The notes beneath the pieces are model-generated. The model had not been told where the DNA came from and made no database searches. It was given only the letters and a program-made list of their open reading frames with translations. Both the position numbers and the translations under genes were made by a program. A stretch of DNA of 38,565 nucleotides from a virus. The stretch's first letter is position 1; each line of letters starts with the position of its first letter. Of this stretch, positions 3,967 through 13,510 are shown one piece after another. The stretch covers positions 1-38,565 of IMG/VR virus record IMGVR_UViG_3300043449_000735. The stretch is one strand, 5' to 3'.

Positions 3967-6259
3967 AATCCTTGACTATGTAGTCGGACTTGCGGAAGCA
4001 GGTGAGACGCCGCTCATAGTGCGGCAAGTGCCAATAGTGCGTAATAACGTACATCTACAGCATTTAGATGGATCGTATAAATATACTTGGCCCGCTTATC
4101 TTCCTACGCATAAGCGTAAGAAAGGCGAAGCTTGGTATATTAATACAGGTTCTTTTATTATCGAGCGCTTTAAAGACGGTAAGGTTAGCGCCGCGTCTGC
4201 CAATTGCGAATACGTGCTTTTTATGATGCTGGACGACATCGGCACAAAAAGCAAAACGCCGCCGCTTGAGCCTACGTGGATAGTTGAGACAAGCCCAGAT
4301 AATTTCCAATGGGTTTACGCATTCAGAGAACAACCAACAACAGGAGAATATTGTGCAGCTATTACAGCGCTGGCCGCAGCCGGTTATACCGATCCAGGCG
4401 CAACTAATGCTGTGCGTAATTGCCGCCTGCCTGGTTCAGTTAATTTAAAACCTGGGCGTGATGCGTTTGAGTGCAAAGAGATCTCTTTTAACCCAAAGCT
4501 AGACTACACGTTACAAGAGATATGTGACGCATGCGGCGTCACGCCGTTAGAGGCTAATACAGCTACCTATCGATCCGTTAGAGTAGAAGACAACGGCGTT
4601 GATAACGTGATGACATGGCTCAACGAGCAAGGGCTTGTCTTATCGCGTCCAAATCCTGAAGGCTGGATGGGCGTTGTCTGCCCTAACAATGCAGCGCATA
4701 CAGACGGCCAGATCGAAGGCCGGTATAGACCGCTGGATCGTTCTTATTGCTGCATGCATGCCCACTGCGATCACATCAACAGCGAAGCGTTTCTTAAATG
4801 GGTCGCTGACAATGGTGGGCCGCGCGAGCATCAAGGCATCAGAGGCGAGCTTATCACTGCCGAATTTAAGGCTATGCATGAAGCTATAAAACCTAACGAG
4901 TTCTTTCCTGATGTAGCATCTGAGCGCGTCGCGCAGGTGGAGCGCGAAGAGGCTGGACGTGTTGAGCGCGGTGACTGGTATGAGCGCTTCGCGTACATCG
5001 TGGATGATGACGCATACTTTGATCTTACGACGCGCAACGAGATCTCGCGCAGTTCTTTCAATGCTATCTTTCGGCATATCAGTTGCGTCTCAGTGCATAA
5101 CGCCAAGCGCCGCATCGAGGCGTCAGTATGCTTTGACGAGAATCGCCAAGAGCACAAAGCAAAACTATTGAAAGGTCTAACCTATGCGGCAGGTGAAAAG
5201 ATCTTGGTGCATAAAGATAATGAAATCTATGGTAATCGATGGCGAGACGCTCGACCGATTTTCACCAGAACAAGCAGAGATATATCACGCTTTACTGCCC
5301 ATTGTGAACGGTTGGTGCCAGATCAAGGCGAACTCGATCATTGCTACGACGTTATGGCTTTTAAGCTCCAACACGCGGACGTTAAAATAAATCACGCCGT
5401 CTTGCATGGCGGCGATGAAGGCTCCGGCAAAGACACGATGTGGGCCCCCTTCATCTGGTCTGTCTGTGGCCCAAATAACAAAAATTGGGGTATTATTGAC
5501 AACGACGGTCTATCGTCGCAGTGGGGCTACCAGCTTGAGAGTGAGATCTTGATCCTTAACGAGCTACGCGAGCCGGAGGCCAAGGAGCGCCGCGCGTTAG
5601 CCAACAAGCTTAAACCTATTATCGCCGCGCCGCCTGACATGCTGCCGATCAATCGTAAGGGTTTACACCCCTATGAGATGGTCAACCGCTTGCTTGTGCT
5701 CGCCTTTACCAACGATCCGATTCCGATCTCTATTCCGTCGCAGGATCGTCGCTGGTTCTGTGTGTGGTCTACCGCGCCGCGTATGGCTCCAGATGAGGCC
5801 CGCGAGATGTGGGACTGGTATCATGCCGGTGGCTTCGAGGCGGTCGCCTCCTGGCTTTACGCGCGCGATGTTAGCCGCTTCAACCCTGCCGCCGCGCCGC
5901 CTATCACTGACTTCAAGCTCTCGCTCGTTGAGCACGGCATGTCTATGGCTGAGAGCTTTATCGTTGAGATGATCAGAGGCCGCAAGGGCGACTTCGCCTT
6001 GGGTGTTATTGCTGGGCCTTTCCATGACATCTGCGGACGCTTGAGCGTTCAGGCCGGCAATGGCATCAAGGTGCCGCAAGCCGCGCTCCTGCATGCGCTC
6101 AAGGAGGCCGGCTGGGTAGACTGCGGTCGCCTGCACTCAGGTAAATATCAGACCAAGCGCCACGTCTTTTGCGCGCCGAACATGCTACAGCATAGCAAGT
6201 CAGACTTGCGTAATATGTGCGAACCAACCCCAACCCCGAACCTACAGGTGGTCAAATGA
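3956..6259 (+). CDS. Primase-helicase fusion (RepB-like primase plus DUF5906-type SF3 helicase)
   Basis: A 767-aa two-part replication protein. Residues of about 1-200 resemble the RepB/archaeo-eukaryotic primase-like family (LDDIGTKS segment, WIVETSPDNFQWVY, NCRLPGSVNLK). A probable zinc motif follows (VVCPNNAAH, then CCMHAHCDH near residues 240-275). The C-terminal half is an SF3/D5-like ATPase: Walker A GGDEGSGKDT with the lysine near residue 492, an ILILNELRE Walker B-like segment, LAFTNDPIPI sensor and a DRRWF arginine-finger candidate. It would unwind DNA and prime for the adjacent polymerase. The stop overlaps the next start in ATGA. Confidence 0.88.
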   Translation: MENRILDYVVGLAEAGETPLIVRQVPIVRNNVHLQHLDGSYKYTWPAYLPTHKRKKGEAWYINTGSFIIERFKDGKVSAASANCEYVLFMMLDDIGTKSKTPPLEPTWIVETSPDNFQWVYAFREQPTTGEYCAAITALAAAGYTDPGATNAVRNCRLPGSVNLKPGRDAFECKEISFNPKLDYTLQEICDACGVTPLEANTATYRSVRVEDNGVDNVMTWLNEQGLVLSRPNPEGWMGVVCPNNAAHTDGQIEGRYRPLDRSYCCMHAHCDHINSEAFLKWVADNGGPREHQGIRGELITAEFKAMHEAIKPNEFFPDVASERVAQVEREEAGRVERGDWYERFAYIVDDDAYFDLTTRNEISRSSFNAIFRHISCVSVHNAKRRIEASVCFDENRQEHKAKLLKGLTYAAGEKILVHKDNEIYGNRWRDARPIFTRTSRDISRFTAHCERLVPDQGELDHCYDVMAFKLQHADVKINHAVLHGGDEGSGKDTMWAPFIWSVCGPNNKNWGIIDNDGLSSQWGYQLESEILILNELREPEAKERRALANKLKPIIAAPPDMLPINRKGLHPYEMVNRLLVLAFTNDPIPISIPSQDRRWFCVWSTAPRMAPDEAREMWDWYHAGGFEAVASWLYARDVSRFNPAAAPPITDFKLSLVEHGMSMAESFIVEMIRGRKGDFALGVIAGPFHDICGRLSVQAGNGIKVPQAALLHALKEAGWVDCGRLHSGKYQTKRHVFCAPNMLQHSKSDLRNMCEPTPTPNLQVVK

Positions 6260-7313: not shown

Positions 7314-7571
7314 TCAATGATTGTTGTTACTAGGATCACAAAAGCCGATTCTTCGTTCTTCATATCTGATTCCACTTATTATGGTTGTATGGTCGCGTTT
7401 AAAGACGCGCGCTATTTGTGTGTAGGTCTTGTCGGTTTCTTTATGCGCGCGATACATGGCCTTGCGGCGCACTGCTATAACGCGCAGGGTGTTGTTGTAG
7501 TCTATGAGGGTTTCATAACTTAACCCCGCCGCTTTCGCCTCCTCCAATATTATTTGTTTGATTGTTTTCAT
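7314..7571 (-). CDS. Orphan DnaA domain IV-like DNA-binding protein, 85 aa
   Basis: Residues 28-70 match the C-terminal DNA-binding domain of the replication initiator DnaA: IAVRRKAMYRAHKETDKTY is the basic-loop region and VFKRDHTTIISGIR (R59, D60, H61, T62, T63) is the DnaA signature helix that reads DnaA boxes. The AAA+ ATPase and domains I-II are absent; full DnaA is around 450 residues. The short N-terminal helix is not recognised. It could bind DnaA-box-like sites on host or phage DNA, either to recruit the replisome or to block host initiation. It overlaps the preceding gene by 59 bases. Confidence 0.8.
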   Translation of the reverse strand: MKTIKQIILEEAKAAGLSYETLIDYNNTLRVIAVRRKAMYRAHKETDKTYTQIARVFKRDHTTIISGIRYEERRIGFCDPSNNNH

Positions 7572-9460: not shown

Positions 9461-10230
9461 TATGCTGCCCTCCCAACGCGGAAGCCGTGTAGATTAATCA
9501 CAATATCTTTTTTGCTATTGCTGCTATTGCCGGCGCATAGGCCGCATTTATCGCAAGATGTGCGCGCCCCGTTTTCTTTGGCGGCGGGGCAACCAATTTC
9601 ATTTGAGGCTTTAACGTCTTTAGATTTTTTGGCTCTGAATGTGCGCCATCCGCAAGCGCTAGCTAAGAGCTGATCGCTCTCGCTCTCACATGAGGCCATG
9701 CATAAGAGCGCGAAAGCCTGGAATCGCGGATCGCGCCATTGGTGACTATAGCCTGTGATTTTTTTAGCTTTTAACGTCGCGGCGCGCCATATCTGGAAGG
9801 GAACAGCAGCAGGGTCGCCATACGTGCCAAGGCGAAAAGCGCTCCCCTCGAATAGCGCGGGCAATAGTGCAGGGTCGTAGTCTACCCCAGGGCGCGCATA
9901 GCGCTTGCGCTCATATGCGCCATAAACACTATAAACGCTCTTTGCTACGTCAACATAGCATTTACCCCCCTTAAATGGTCGCTGGGGACAATCGCCGCAA
10001 ATGCTAGCGTCGCGACCATCTTTTAGTGCAGCTATCGGGTTAACGTCGCTACGTATTATAAATGTCTGCACCATTGCGCCGGTCTTAGCATTGGCGCTTG
10101 TTGCTGCTATCCTGTTTGCAATAGCCACGATAGGCGCGCCATCGATAGCGCTGGGGCCTTCATATAATATAATGCCGGTAAATTGATTGCGCTTTAACGC
10201 AAGGCGCAAGGCGTTTAATTCTTGTATCAT
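9460..10230 (-). CDS. Conserved cysteine-rich phage protein, 256 aa (DUF7227-like)
   Basis: The start MIQELNALRLALKR has a GAAGGG ribosome site. Three cysteine clusters stand out: C78, C81 and C91 (ICGDCPQRP, then KCYV); a middle group (LLCMASCES, SACGW, around residues 175-195); and a late group (IGCPAAKE, SCDKCGLCAG). Conserved-looking blocks include LGTYGDPAAVP and TGYSHQWRDPRF. Ten cysteines in CxxC-like spacing suggest metal or Fe-S binding. I recall this as a widespread phage family of unknown function, possibly DUF7227; the name is uncertain. It is the largest gene of the accessory operon. Confidence 0.72.
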   Translation of the reverse strand: MIQELNALRLALKRNQFTGIILYEGPSAIDGAPIVAIANRIAATSANAKTGAMVQTFIIRSDVNPIAALKDGRDASICGDCPQRPFKGGKCYVDVAKSVYSVYGAYERKRYARPGVDYDPALLPALFEGSAFRLGTYGDPAAVPFQIWRAATLKAKKITGYSHQWRDPRFQAFALLCMASCESESDQLLASACGWRTFRAKKSKDVKASNEIGCPAAKENGARTSCDKCGLCAGNSSNSKKDIVINLHGFRVGRAA

Positions 10231-10270
10231 TAGACTAACCCTTCATAAGGACAAATAGACAAGATGACAC

Positions 10271-10294
10271 TAACACAAATAGTTTATTAGTCAA
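10271..10294 (-). promoter_or_regulatory. Candidate leftward promoter before the cysteine-rich gene
   Basis: The minus strand reads TTGACTAA, one base, AAA, then TGTG and TTA. The same element occurs at 11058-11081, matching at 18 of 24 positions, also upstream of leftward genes. TTGACT fits a -35 hexamer, and the downstream TA-containing part would hold the -10. It overlaps the stop of the 136-aa gene and sits about 40 bases before the next start. Confidence 0.45.
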
Positions 10295-10701
10295 GCGGCC
10301 TCTTTGAAATAAACCGCAAACAAATAAAGAGAATCACTGAAGAATTTTTTATACTTTACTGAATCATCATCAGTATAAAGGCGTTTATATGCGTCGACAC
10401 ATATAACGCCGGCGCGTTTATAAATTGTGTAATGATAGTTTAAATCGCCATGTGCTAGATGATTTGTTGTAAGATATACGCCGCCGCCGCCCTCTTTATT
10501 TGCTGCAACAAAAGCCGCCGCCATGTCATCGGCTTCAAATCGCGCGTCTAATGGATATGGATCGTTTTCATCATGCGCCCATGACTTGGCAATACCGGCG
10601 CGTATAAATTGCGCCGCGCCTTCTGGATAGCCGTCATGGTGTTTGTAAACGCTAAAGCGTTTATTCTCGTCTTTGAAAGTGTAAACAGCTCTAGTTGACA
10701 T
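10291..10701 (-). CDS. Conserved phage protein of unknown function, 136 aa
   Basis: It begins MSTRAVYTFKDENKRFSVYK with an AAGGAG site upstream. The sequence looks like a compact alpha/beta protein: strands at the start, a Gly-rich loop (KEGGGGVYLTTNHLAHGDLN), and a C-terminal FSDSLYLFAVYF helix. I recall similar proteins in other phages but no function. It is followed within its stop by the candidate promoter for the cysteine-rich gene. Confidence 0.7.
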   Translation of the reverse strand: MSTRAVYTFKDENKRFSVYKHHDGYPEGAAQFIRAGIAKSWAHDENDPYPLDARFEADDMAAAFVAANKEGGGGVYLTTNHLAHGDLNYHYTIYKRAGVICVDAYKRLYTDDDSVKYKKFFSDSLYLFAVYFKEAA

Positions 10702-10713
10702 GATATGTGCTCC

Positions 10714-10857
10714 TTAGATTATTGGTTCAATCAATAACATGCTGCCGCGATGCAGGTTCGCATAGCGTATGCCGATCTCGATGGCCTCTTCTCGCGTGGC
10801 GCATATGCCGCTCTCGACTAGCGCGTGATATCTATTTAATACTTGGAATGTATACAT
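10714..10857 (-). CDS. Unknown small protein, 47 aa
   Basis: It begins MYTFQVLNRYHALVESGICA and ends LLIEPII, an alpha-beta-like small protein. A CAGGAAC ribosome site precedes it on the minus strand. The stop lies directly before the AAGGAG site of the next gene. No family recognised. Confidence 0.6.
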   Translation of the reverse strand: MYTFQVLNRYHALVESGICATREEAIEIGIRYANLHRGSMLLIEPII

Positions 10858-10878
10858 GACTTGTGTTCCTGGGATGAG

Positions 10879-10897
10879 GGGGCGCTATGCGCGCCCC
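10879..10897 (-). terminator. GC-rich hairpin at the end of the 44-aa gene
   Basis: A 7-bp stem GGGGCGC (10879-10885) pairs with GCGCCCC (10891-10897), with a 5-base loop. It has the same stem as the hairpin at 381-399. It includes the end of the 44-aa gene and precedes the next gene. No U-tract follows, so it may be an attenuator or an RNA-end stabiliser rather than a full terminator. Confidence 0.4.
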
Positions 10898-11019
10898 GTT
10901 ATTAATCTTAAAGCCAGTCGTAACATCACTAGCTCTTTATTATCCTCTTCGCCTATGCCGTCGCATTCTATTTCTAGAGCGTCGATTCGGGCTTCAATTT
11001 CTTTTTGCGTCATGGTCAT
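10885..11019 (-). CDS. Small helical protein, 44 aa, first gene of the leftward operon
   Basis: It begins MTMTQKEIEARIDALEIECD and ends RLITGRA. Charged and heptad-like, probably one helical hairpin. An AAAGGA ribosome site lies about 11 bases upstream; a second in-frame ATG follows two codons later. It is the first gene downstream of the divergent regulatory region. Confidence 0.55.
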   Translation of the reverse strand: MTMTQKEIEARIDALEIECDGIGEEDNKELVMLRLALRLITGRA

Positions 11020-11053
11020 TTTTGGTCATGTCCTTTCGTGATTCGATGATTAA

Positions 11054-11081
11054 AGCTTATCACACTTTCTTTGTTAGTCAA
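11054..11081 (-). promoter_or_regulatory. Candidate leftward promoter for the accessory operon
   Basis: On the minus strand TTGACT (complement of 11076-11081) is followed after 16 bases by TAAGCT (complement of 11054-11059). The element shares 18 of 24 positions with the one at 10271-10294. It is about 35 bases upstream of the first gene of the leftward operon. Confidence 0.45.
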
Positions 11082-11116
11082 TAACTATTTTGTCAAAAAC
11101 AAAATATTTTTGTTTG

Positions 11117-11430
11117 TTGGTCTTGTTTGGTCACGTTTTGGTTATTGTTTTGGGGTTGAATGACCCAAATGTAAGCGACTAATATTGCGGGCTAAAGTGG
11201 CAGGCTTGGTCTTATTGGTCTTTTTTATATTAACTAGTTAAAAAAAAAATAATGTATACATATATATGTAGGTGTGTATACAATCCTCCATATTTGGCGC
11301 GATTTTTTTCCCGTGACCAAAAGACCAAGACGACCAAGACCTCCCCTTCTCTTGCGCTTCTCTTCCCCCATGTCTACATTCAATATGCCCGCGTGAATGC
11401 AACCACAAAACACAAGACCAAAAAGACCAA
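11117..11430. repeat. Inverted array of nine GACCAA hexamers
   Basis: TTGGTC (the reverse complement) occurs at 11117, 11127, 11206 and 11215. GACCAA occurs at 11315, 11323, 11332, 11416 and 11425. All four left copies point one way and all five right copies the other, in clusters with 8-10-base steps, about one helical turn. The clusters are spaced about 80-90 bases apart. The axis of symmetry falls at about 11270, in the AT-rich palindromic centre. This looks like a protein-binding array; the binding protein is unknown. Confidence 0.8.
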
Positions 11431-11592
11431 GGTCTGAATGTATACTTAGTTTATGTAAACATAATTGACATTGGTTTACATTTGGCTCAGTTGACAATCG
11501 GGAGGGGGGCTGGGCCTTGCGTGGTCTGGGAATATCTACGCAGGGATTACTCAAACTTTTTTTTATTTTAAAAATGTGCTAATAAAGATTCT

Positions 11593-12117
11593 ATGTTTGA
11601 AAGCTTGCCATACGAGCCTCGTAAAATAGAGGCCACAGAGAAGAATCTCGAACTGATCTACGAGGCCGCGCGTAAAGGACTCAAGGGCGACGCGCTCGCG
11701 TTAGCTGCCGGCATGTTGCCGGTTGAGTATCGCCGGCTGGTGCAGTTCGATCCTATTGCTGAGTATGCGGAGATCAAAGGCCGCGCAGATGGCGAGATGG
11801 AGATGGCCGGCGTCTTACGCACAGCCGCGTTAAACGGCGACACTAAAGCAGCGCTTGATATACTAAAGCATGTGCATAAGTGGACTGCGCCACAGTCGAT
11901 GCAGATCCAAGTCGAACAGCGCATATCTATCTTAGCGGCGCTTGAAGAAGCGCAGACCAGAGTTATCGAAGGGCAGGTATTGGATGCAAGTGCCGATTTA
12001 CTCAGCGGAAGAAGAACAGAAGCTGATGGCAACGCTCTGGAGTCCGACGCTCAAGAACGACCCGCTCGCGTTCGTGCGACTGGCCTTCCCATGGAAGAAG
12101 CCTGGGACACCGCTTGA
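11593..12117 (+). CDS. terS: Probable small terminase subunit, 174 aa
   Basis: First gene of the late operon, directly before and overlapping the large terminase. The N-terminal part (LIYEAARKGLKGDALALAAG) suits a helix-turn-helix DNA-recognition domain, followed by acidic helices and a central segment (AALNGDTKAALDILKHVHKW) typical of small terminase subunits. The last roughly 45 residues are encoded in DNA that also encodes the N-terminus of the large subunit. It would recognise the packaging site and activate the large subunit. The assignment relies on position and fold pattern. Confidence 0.72.
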   Translation: MFESLPYEPRKIEATEKNLELIYEAARKGLKGDALALAAGMLPVEYRRLVQFDPIAEYAEIKGRADGEMEMAGVLRTAALNGDTKAALDILKHVHKWTAPQSMQIQVEQRISILAALEEAQTRVIEGQVLDASADLLSGRRTEADGNALESDAQERPARVRATGLPMEEAWDTA

Positions 12118-13510
12118 ACACTTCGAAGGCCCGCGCCAGTGGCAGCGCGAAGTTCTGATCGAGCTGCGCGAGCACATCAAAGCGAACAACGGTAAGATAG
12201 ACTTCGAGACATTGCGGCTTGCAGTCAGTTCAGGGCGCGGAATCGGTAAGTCTGCCCTCGTAAGCTGGCTAACAATCTGGATGCTGACGACAAGAATAGG
12301 TTCTACCACGATAGTTTCAGCTAACTCAGAGGCGCAGCTCCGCAGCGTCACCTGGGCTGAGATCACCAAGTGGCTGAGTATGTCGATACACAGTCACTGG
12401 TTCGAGGTATCCGCCACACGGGTGCTACCGGCGAAGTGGATAGCGGAGCTGGTCGAGCGGGATCTAAAACTAGGAACGCGCTATTGGAGCGTAGAAGGGC
12501 GGTTGTGGAGTGCAGAGAATCCAGATTCCTACGCTGGCGTGCATAACTTCGCGGGTGTCATGCTGGTATTCGATGAGGCGAGCGGAATTGATGATAGTAT
12601 CTGGTCAGTTGCAGCGGGCTTTTTTACGGAAAATACCCCTAATCGCTTTTGGTTGTGCTTCAGCAACCCCCGTCGTAACTCTGGTTACTTTTATGAGTGT
12701 TTTAACTCCAAGCGAGACTTTTGGCGAAATAAAATTGTCGATGCCCGCTCCGTCGAAGGCACGGATAAGGCCGTATACCAACAGATCATTGACGAGTATG
12801 GCCCCGATTCAAGCGCAGCCCACGTCGAGGTCTACGGTCAGTTCCCCAACGCCAGCGACGACCAGTTCATCGGAAACGCGCTGGTTGACGAGGCAATGGA
12901 ACGTCCCGCTATATCCGACCAGTCCGCGCCCATCGTGGTCGGAGTGGATCCAGCACGCTTTGGTGCCGACGCTACCGTCATCGCCATAAGGCAAGGCCGC
13001 GACATACTGAGCATCCGACGACACCGTGGCGACGACACAATGGAAGTTGTAGGCCGCGTGATCGACGTGATCGAAGAATATAAGCCTGCGCTGGTCGTGA
13101 TCGACGAGGGCGGACTCGGCGCAGGCGTCGTGGATAGGTTGAAGGAGCAACGCTACAAGGTGCGCGGTGTGAACTTCGGCAATAAGAGCACAAAGCCCAT
13201 GATGTATGGCAACAAGCGCGCTGAGATGTGGGGCGCGATGAAGGACTGGCTGAAGGACGCGAGCATACCCAAGGATCGCTATCTGAAGTCAGACCTGATC
13301 GGGCCTATGATGAAGCCGGACTCGAAGGGAACGATATTCTTAGAGTCCAAGAAAGACATGAAGTCGAGAGGTCTAGCCTCACCTGACGCGGCGGACGCCA
13401 TAGCGGTGACGTTCGCATTTCCTGTCGCCAGACGCGAGCAACGAGTAGACAACCAGCGCCGCGTCAGCTATGGTCAAGGCTCCGCATCGTCTGGTTGGAT
13501 GGCTTCATAA
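11984..13510 (+). CDS. terL: Large terminase subunit (packaging ATPase and nuclease)
   Basis: I use ATG 11984 (508 aa); the open frame extends to a TTG at 11942. The N-terminal ATPase has Walker A SSGRGIGKS (residues 82-90), Walker B VMLVFDEASG, and a CFSNPRRNSG coupling segment. The C-terminal RNase H-like nuclease has VGVDPARFGADAT, VVIDEGGLGAG and a final SPDAADAIAV acidic motif. It powers DNA translocation into the procapsid and cuts the concatemer. The 134-base overlap with the small subunit in another frame is unusually long. Confidence 0.95.
   Translation: MQVPIYSAEEEQKLMATLWSPTLKNDPLAFVRLAFPWKKPGTPLEHFEGPRQWQREVLIELREHIKANNGKIDFETLRLAVSSGRGIGKSALVSWLTIWMLTTRIGSTTIVSANSEAQLRSVTWAEITKWLSMSIHSHWFEVSATRVLPAKWIAELVERDLKLGTRYWSVEGRLWSAENPDSYAGVHNFAGVMLVFDEASGIDDSIWSVAAGFFTENTPNRFWLCFSNPRRNSGYFYECFNSKRDFWRNKIVDARSVEGTDKAVYQQIIDEYGPDSSAAHVEVYGQFPNASDDQFIGNALVDEAMERPAISDQSAPIVVGVDPARFGADATVIAIRQGRDILSIRRHRGDDTMEVVGRVIDVIEEYKPALVVIDEGGLGAGVVDRLKEQRYKVRGVNFGNKSTKPMMYGNKRAEMWGAMKDWLKDASIPKDRYLKSDLIGPMMKPDSKGTIFLESKKDMKSRGLASPDAADAIAVTFAFPVARREQRVDNQRRVSYGQGSASSGWMAS

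Follow-up and report, generated by a model that had tools for sequence, protein, structure and literature searches.

A conserved paired-word array beside terS in a freshwater phage is a probable replication origin whose word changes with the wing of a VapE-like primase–helicase

The window analysed here is a whole 38,565-bp virus record, and the element in question is an array of short GACCAA words flanking an AT-rich core beside the gene in the position of terS. Comparison of sequences establishes the array, its conservation and layout, a word that changes among relatives together with the wing of a VapE-like primase–helicase, and poor tracking of that word by TerS and by a DnaA-like protein. 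We consider it likely, with a probability of roughly 0.82, that the array is the phage replication origin, of the self-loading-helicase kind, with the VapE wing as its specificity determinant. The array and its predicted reader comprise the following features:

11012–11029, minus strand: outermost (third) left pair, ATGACCAT at 11012–11019 and ATGACCAA at 11022–11029
11117–11134, minus strand: left distal pair, AAGACCAA at 11117–11124 and GTGACCAA at 11127–11134
11206–11222, minus strand: left proximal pair, two copies of AAGACCAA, 9 bp from start to start
11223–11312, no strand: AT-rich core of about 90 bp (92 bp by the array finder), 74% A+T, predicted melting region
11313–11337, plus strand: right proximal triple, GTGACCAA, AAGACCAA and ACGACCAA
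11414–11430, plus strand: right distal pair, two copies of AAGACCAA
3956–6259, plus strand: VapE-like replication initiator of 767 aa, predicted reader of the word on the evidence of Pfam, Foldseek, AlphaFold and covariation
6128–6157, plus strand: wing-tip codons of this protein, residues 725–734 (RLHSGKYQTK), of which columns 727, 729 and 732 covary with the word

The nine sites that an earlier note had assigned to the array are all in place, starting at 11117, 11127, 11206 and 11215 on the minus strand and at 11315, 11323, 11332, 11416 and 11425 on the plus strand. Its count of four left and five right copies was too low, having missed the third left pair formed by a tenth exact site at 11022 and a one-mismatch partner at 11012, both on the minus strand. 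The stretch 11022–11430 thus holds 10 exact sites, five reversed (TTGGTC) on the left and five forward (GACCAA) on the right, grouped as pairs or one triple with 8–10 bp spacing around the AT-rich core. GACCAA occurs 28 times in the whole genome against 14.3 ± 3.4 expected, a count reached by no shuffle. An earlier exact 6-mer finder overlooked degenerate arrays; arrays were instead scored with a finder that accepts 7-mers with at most one mismatch in pairs 7–12 bp apart that are reversed on the left and forward on the right. By this measure the window array scores 13.5, by comparison with a maximum of 7.5 among 120 block-shuffled loci.

Querying IMG/VR with TerS returned 80 loci, and querying it with VapE returned about 300 more. 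Arrays of good quality are present at about 75 loci, 54 of them non-redundant. Close relatives retain the array, its orientation and its pairing (the pair matching the outermost left pair is also present in loci L010, L013 and L014), and distant relatives retain the layout with a different word. The words seen include GACCAA, GACCAT, GACTAT, GACGAT, GACCCA, CCCTAA, TGTCCACA, TGCCCACA, TTGACAAT and others, which can be superimposed on one near-invariant C. In relatives whose sequence spans this region, the pairs are spaced 8–12 bp and flank an AT-rich core of 73–148 bp, with the copies on its left reversed and those on its right forward. Among the 54 non-redundant arrays, the within-strand spacing is 8–9 bp in 234 cases and 10–12 bp in 60, and the core has a median length of 92 bp (10th–90th percentile, 80–108 bp). 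The array lies just upstream of the terS-position gene, or at its start, in 52 of the 52 non-redundant loci that reach that far. The search of related phages proposed in the earlier note finds spacing and orientation kept in the same place next to terS, with the word changing. The nearest annotated record, MW202483.1, is a complete podovirus from Manatee Spring that carries portal, coat, tail and large terminase genes.

Two side observations concern array composition. In L153, a head-to-tail run of TGACCCA with 19 right-hand sites (13113–13284) replaces the pairs. A second palindromic motif (TGTATACA / TGTAAACA) occurs in many near relatives, where it lies in the core and the right flank, independent of the word: in the window, the palindrome TGTATACA occurs twice in the core (11253 and 11275) and the motif recurs at 11437–11466, L002 carries it at 10200–10600, and MW202483.1 has about 12 GTTTAC copies in the region of the core and right flank.

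The VapE-like primase–helicase probably reads the word, as suggested by covariation between the two. Inspection of the first loci by eye had shown that a short stretch in the C-terminal part of VapE varies with the word. We then compared all variable VapE columns with the word, corrected for overall divergence, excluding loci with ambiguous word registers (GCCTAA, CGCATAA, ACCGCC, TTGCCTA and others). H727, Q732 and G729 take ranks 1–3 of 238 variable columns. In a hold-out set of 39 loci that were retrieved only once this stretch had come to attention, columns 732, 727 and 729 again take ranks 1–3, here of 423 columns, with r of 0.63, 0.62 and 0.56, by comparison with 0.32 for the next column. 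Such pairwise correlations leave some shared ancestry in, against which the hold-out set and a comparison of close pairs serve as safeguards. Among pairs with a helicase distance below 0.2, those with different words differ by 0.65 in the wing and 0.19 in the rest of the C-terminus, whereas those with the same word differ by 0.14 in both. In L062 and L283, for example, the helicases are 2% different and the wings 38%, and the word cores are mainly one letter apart (GACGAT/GACTAT).

Particular wings go with particular words: R[LI]KSR..D with TGTCCACA, R[VI]AS....S with GACCCA, SV[AG]T.E.QT with CCCTAA and LC[SC]S...K with most GACGAT arrays. The combination of T732 and GACTAT recurs in separate lineages (L021; L079, L052 and L283; L218 and L225). 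Consistent with these associations, L391, from a later genome scan, has a TGTCCACA-type wing like that of the TGTCCAC phages, and a TGTCCAC array was found there. Since the recognition helix of VapE (residues 708–717) is comparatively conserved, most of the changing base specificity appears to reside in the wing loop rather than in helix 3.

In VapE, Pfam identifies a RepB_primase domain (residues 83–167) and a DUF5906/superfamily 3 (SF3) helicase (483–599). The AlphaFold model (mean predicted local distance difference test score 85) predicts a C-terminal winged helix at about residues 664–739, arranged as helix–strand–helix–helix–strand–wing–strand, in which residues 727–734 form the wing tip between two strands. 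With the whole model, the best Foldseek match is the NrS-1 primase–helicase (6k9c, E 8e-15), to which phmmer gives 7.7e-4; further matches include poxvirus D5/E5, African swine fever virus PrimPol and the SaPI5 primase–helicase/PriRep1, with 7ola and 7pds among them. VapE is present in every TerS-fetched locus that covers its place. Antisense open reading frames over VapE aside, it is the sole family found between its own start and the array in 75 of 75 array loci, a ubiquity that partly reflects the use of VapE as the query for many of the loci; the next real family in that interval, the DnaA-like protein, is found in 34 of the 75.

On this basis we infer the following mechanism. The VapE C-terminal winged helix would bind the paired 8-bp words on either side of the AT-rich core, with base specificity residing mainly in the wing loop (residues 725–732), so that a change of word would be accompanied by a change of wing. 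The inverted layout would lead helicase assemblies to be loaded on both flanks of the core, which would melt, and the fused RepB-type primase together with the phage DNA polymerase would begin synthesis, placing the start of replication at the array.

Several findings weigh against an origin read by VapE. The distance from the vapE stop to the outermost array site is about 4.8 kb in the window and roughly 1.5–5.4 kb in relatives, a gap of about 5 kb between origin and initiator, unlike Staphylococcus aureus pathogenicity islands (SaPIs), in which the origin lies directly downstream of the initiator gene. The minimum of the cumulative GC skew falls near 11 kb, the place where the gene strand also switches, and is uninformative because of this coincidence. 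In the first 15 loci alone, column 728 ranked top and 727 only eleventh. K732 accompanies GACTAT in L060 and L253, which shows that the word is not set by residue 732 alone. L071, L076 and some other VapE-bearing relatives have no array above the finder threshold. Finally, the isolated VapE C-terminal domain has no sequence match in Pfam or the PDB and no significant match by Foldseek (best E 0.08).

The earlier note had left three options, an origin with iterons, an operator or a packaging site, of which our comparison supports the origin and neither of the others. It had also named TerS, a LuxR-type protein and a DnaA-like protein as possible binders; these track the word poorly or are patchily present, and VapE was not on its list. 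The genes that bear on these alternatives are:

11593–12117, plus strand: terS-position gene, named by its position before the large terminase gene, with no Pfam or PHROG match
10885–11019, minus strand: leftward open reading frame of 44 aa, with its start codon within the outermost left pair
7314–7571, minus strand: DnaA_C-like helix-turn-helix protein, rejected as a general reader

Pac sites are frequently near terS, and the constant position of the array beside that gene would fit a pac or cos site at which TerS binds the repeats to start packaging. We nevertheless regard this as very unlikely, because the site does not change with TerS. The TerS proteins of L101 and L102 are 97% identical with completely different words, TTGTCCACA and ATGACCCA, and those of L034 and L052 are 98% identical with GACGAT and GACTAT; such near-identical TerS with different words led us to reject TerS as the word reader. 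Conversely, wing-identical pairs whose TerS proteins are more than 35% different keep their word (mean word distance 1.1 vs 3.8), and the best TerS column reaches an r of 0.23, by comparison with 0.51 for VapE 727. A looping operator that serves divergent operons and is recognised by a regulatory protein of the phage, whether repressor or activator (LuxR-like, DnaA-like or other), would account for the placement at the junction of the leftward early genes with the rightward late genes and for the overlap of the outermost left pair with the start codon of the 44-aa frame, and a combined use as origin and operator is possible. As the explanation of the array it is nonetheless very improbable: no candidate regulator is common to all array-bearing phages, promoter-like sites are at chance level (3 found vs 2.6 expected), and the AT-rich core that separates the inner sites, with its conserved length, suits an origin better. 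The LuxR-like protein was rejected as reader, being confined to some groups and missing from many array-bearing relatives.

An origin read instead by the phage DnaA_C-like protein or by host DnaA is scarcely credible, even though the DnaA-like protein is widespread among near relatives and L227 and L236 have a DnaA-box-like word, TATCCACA. About half of 79 loci covering VapE to array lack the protein, among them every listed locus whose word is DnaA-box-like, and the recognition helix of the protein, RDH[TS]T, is nearly constant, with few exceptions, whatever the word; its absences, near-constant helix and weak column association led to its rejection as a general reader. No exact copy of the TTATNCACA DnaA boxes is found in 11000–11600, which sets the array apart from DnaA/oriC-type origins, and one-mismatch boxes are at chance level genome-wide. 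The 7314–7571 product, carried by about half of these phages, is a small stand-alone protein resembling DnaA domain IV; its RDHTT helix is intact, and it might target host DnaA boxes. A cruciform was also considered and rejected: the single strand folds strongly (z −5.7), but this is a consequence of the inverted orientation of the sites, and the arm spacing differs from one relative to another.

The proposed origin resembles those of SaPIs and Gram-negative phage-inducible chromosomal islands (PICIs), in which two iteron sets flank an AT-rich region and Rep or Pri-Rep together with ori replicates a plasmid (PMC6092414). In 2018 this layout was called common to PICIs and present in "no other known bacterial replicon" (PMC6092414). 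The initiators there are self-loading helicases, sometimes primase-fused, with a C-terminal DNA-binding domain (PMC6092414, PMC7581432), which in SaPI Rep and in Cch2 of the staphylococcal cassette chromosome mec (SCCmec) binds the iterons (PMC7581432). In VapE, DUF5906 and the Foldseek matches 7ola and 7pds place the helicase with this group, and the winged helix, the predicted DNA-binding domain, comes from the model. By contrast, the window phage, 38 kb in size, is no satellite but an ordinary phage that carries virion and terminase genes of its own, as does its complete relative MW202483.1, and its origin would adjoin terS about 5 kb from the initiator gene instead of lying directly downstream of it. 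For SaPI or PICI replicons we found no description of word diversity or of covariation with a wing. By analogy, the arrangement would work like the SaPI/PICI and P4 alpha systems, yet it is no PICI replicon.

Other initiators share parts of this design. P4 alpha, like VapE as predicted, combines primase, SF3 helicase and C-terminal winged helix in one chain; the winged helix is described as binding origin repeats in the part of PMC4234260 that cites Yeo 2002. VapE is not a P4 alpha member because the primase type differs (Toprim in P4, RepB_primase here), and its C-terminal domain matches no PDB chain by sequence. NrS-1 primase–polymerase gives the best match in fold (6k9c) to the helicase half, a likeness at the level of the protein, and the window phage differs in having a separate family A DNA polymerase. 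SCCmec Cch2 is likewise a self-loading helicase, and its C-terminal domain, when isolated, binds the repeats of its origin (PMC7581432), but it has three direct repeats rather than an inverted paired array around a core, and its primase is separate. ORF904 of pRN1 combines primase, SF3 helicase and C-terminal winged helix (PMC4234260), whereas its origin is a stem-loop without iterons.

More tentatively, these environmental phages may be a large family with one origin design in which a few substitutions at a time alter the 8-bp word and the wing loop together, giving replication-compatibility groups among co-circulating phages. Possible elements of a residue-to-base code are Q732 with CCAA, D732/K727 with GTCCAC, T732 with GACTAT and K732 with GACGAT. 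If so, a change of word might let a phage evade hijacking of its initiator by satellites or by competing phages. What is known so far of origin recognition by self-loading replicative helicases comes from a few satellites and plasmids; dozens of natural matched origin–initiator pairs with many words would make specificity readable from sequence. An origin layout ascribed to PICIs would be placed in ordinary, abundant environmental phages, and the layout offers a means of finding origins automatically in such phages.

Between array and terS, the block 11437–11592, with TTTATGTAAACAT, GGGAGGGGGGCTGGGCC, ATCTACGCAGGGATTAC and a T-rich stretch, is recognisably conserved at 73–77% TerS identity, includes a conserved block at 11497–11570, and is a candidate for a cos/pac site or for a late promoter. 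In L002, an inserted gene annotated as homing-endonuclease-like (10712–11158) separates the origin region from terS, and L034 and L038 also have a coding-looking insert upstream of terS. A scan of genome collections returned few relatives, nearly all fragments in freshwater metagenome-assembled genomes (MAGs; for example Rhodoferax), which does not fix the host. VapE relatives in freshwater betaproteobacterial MAGs (L386 and L391, both Rhodoferax MAG contigs, L388 and L389) give a possible host hint only.
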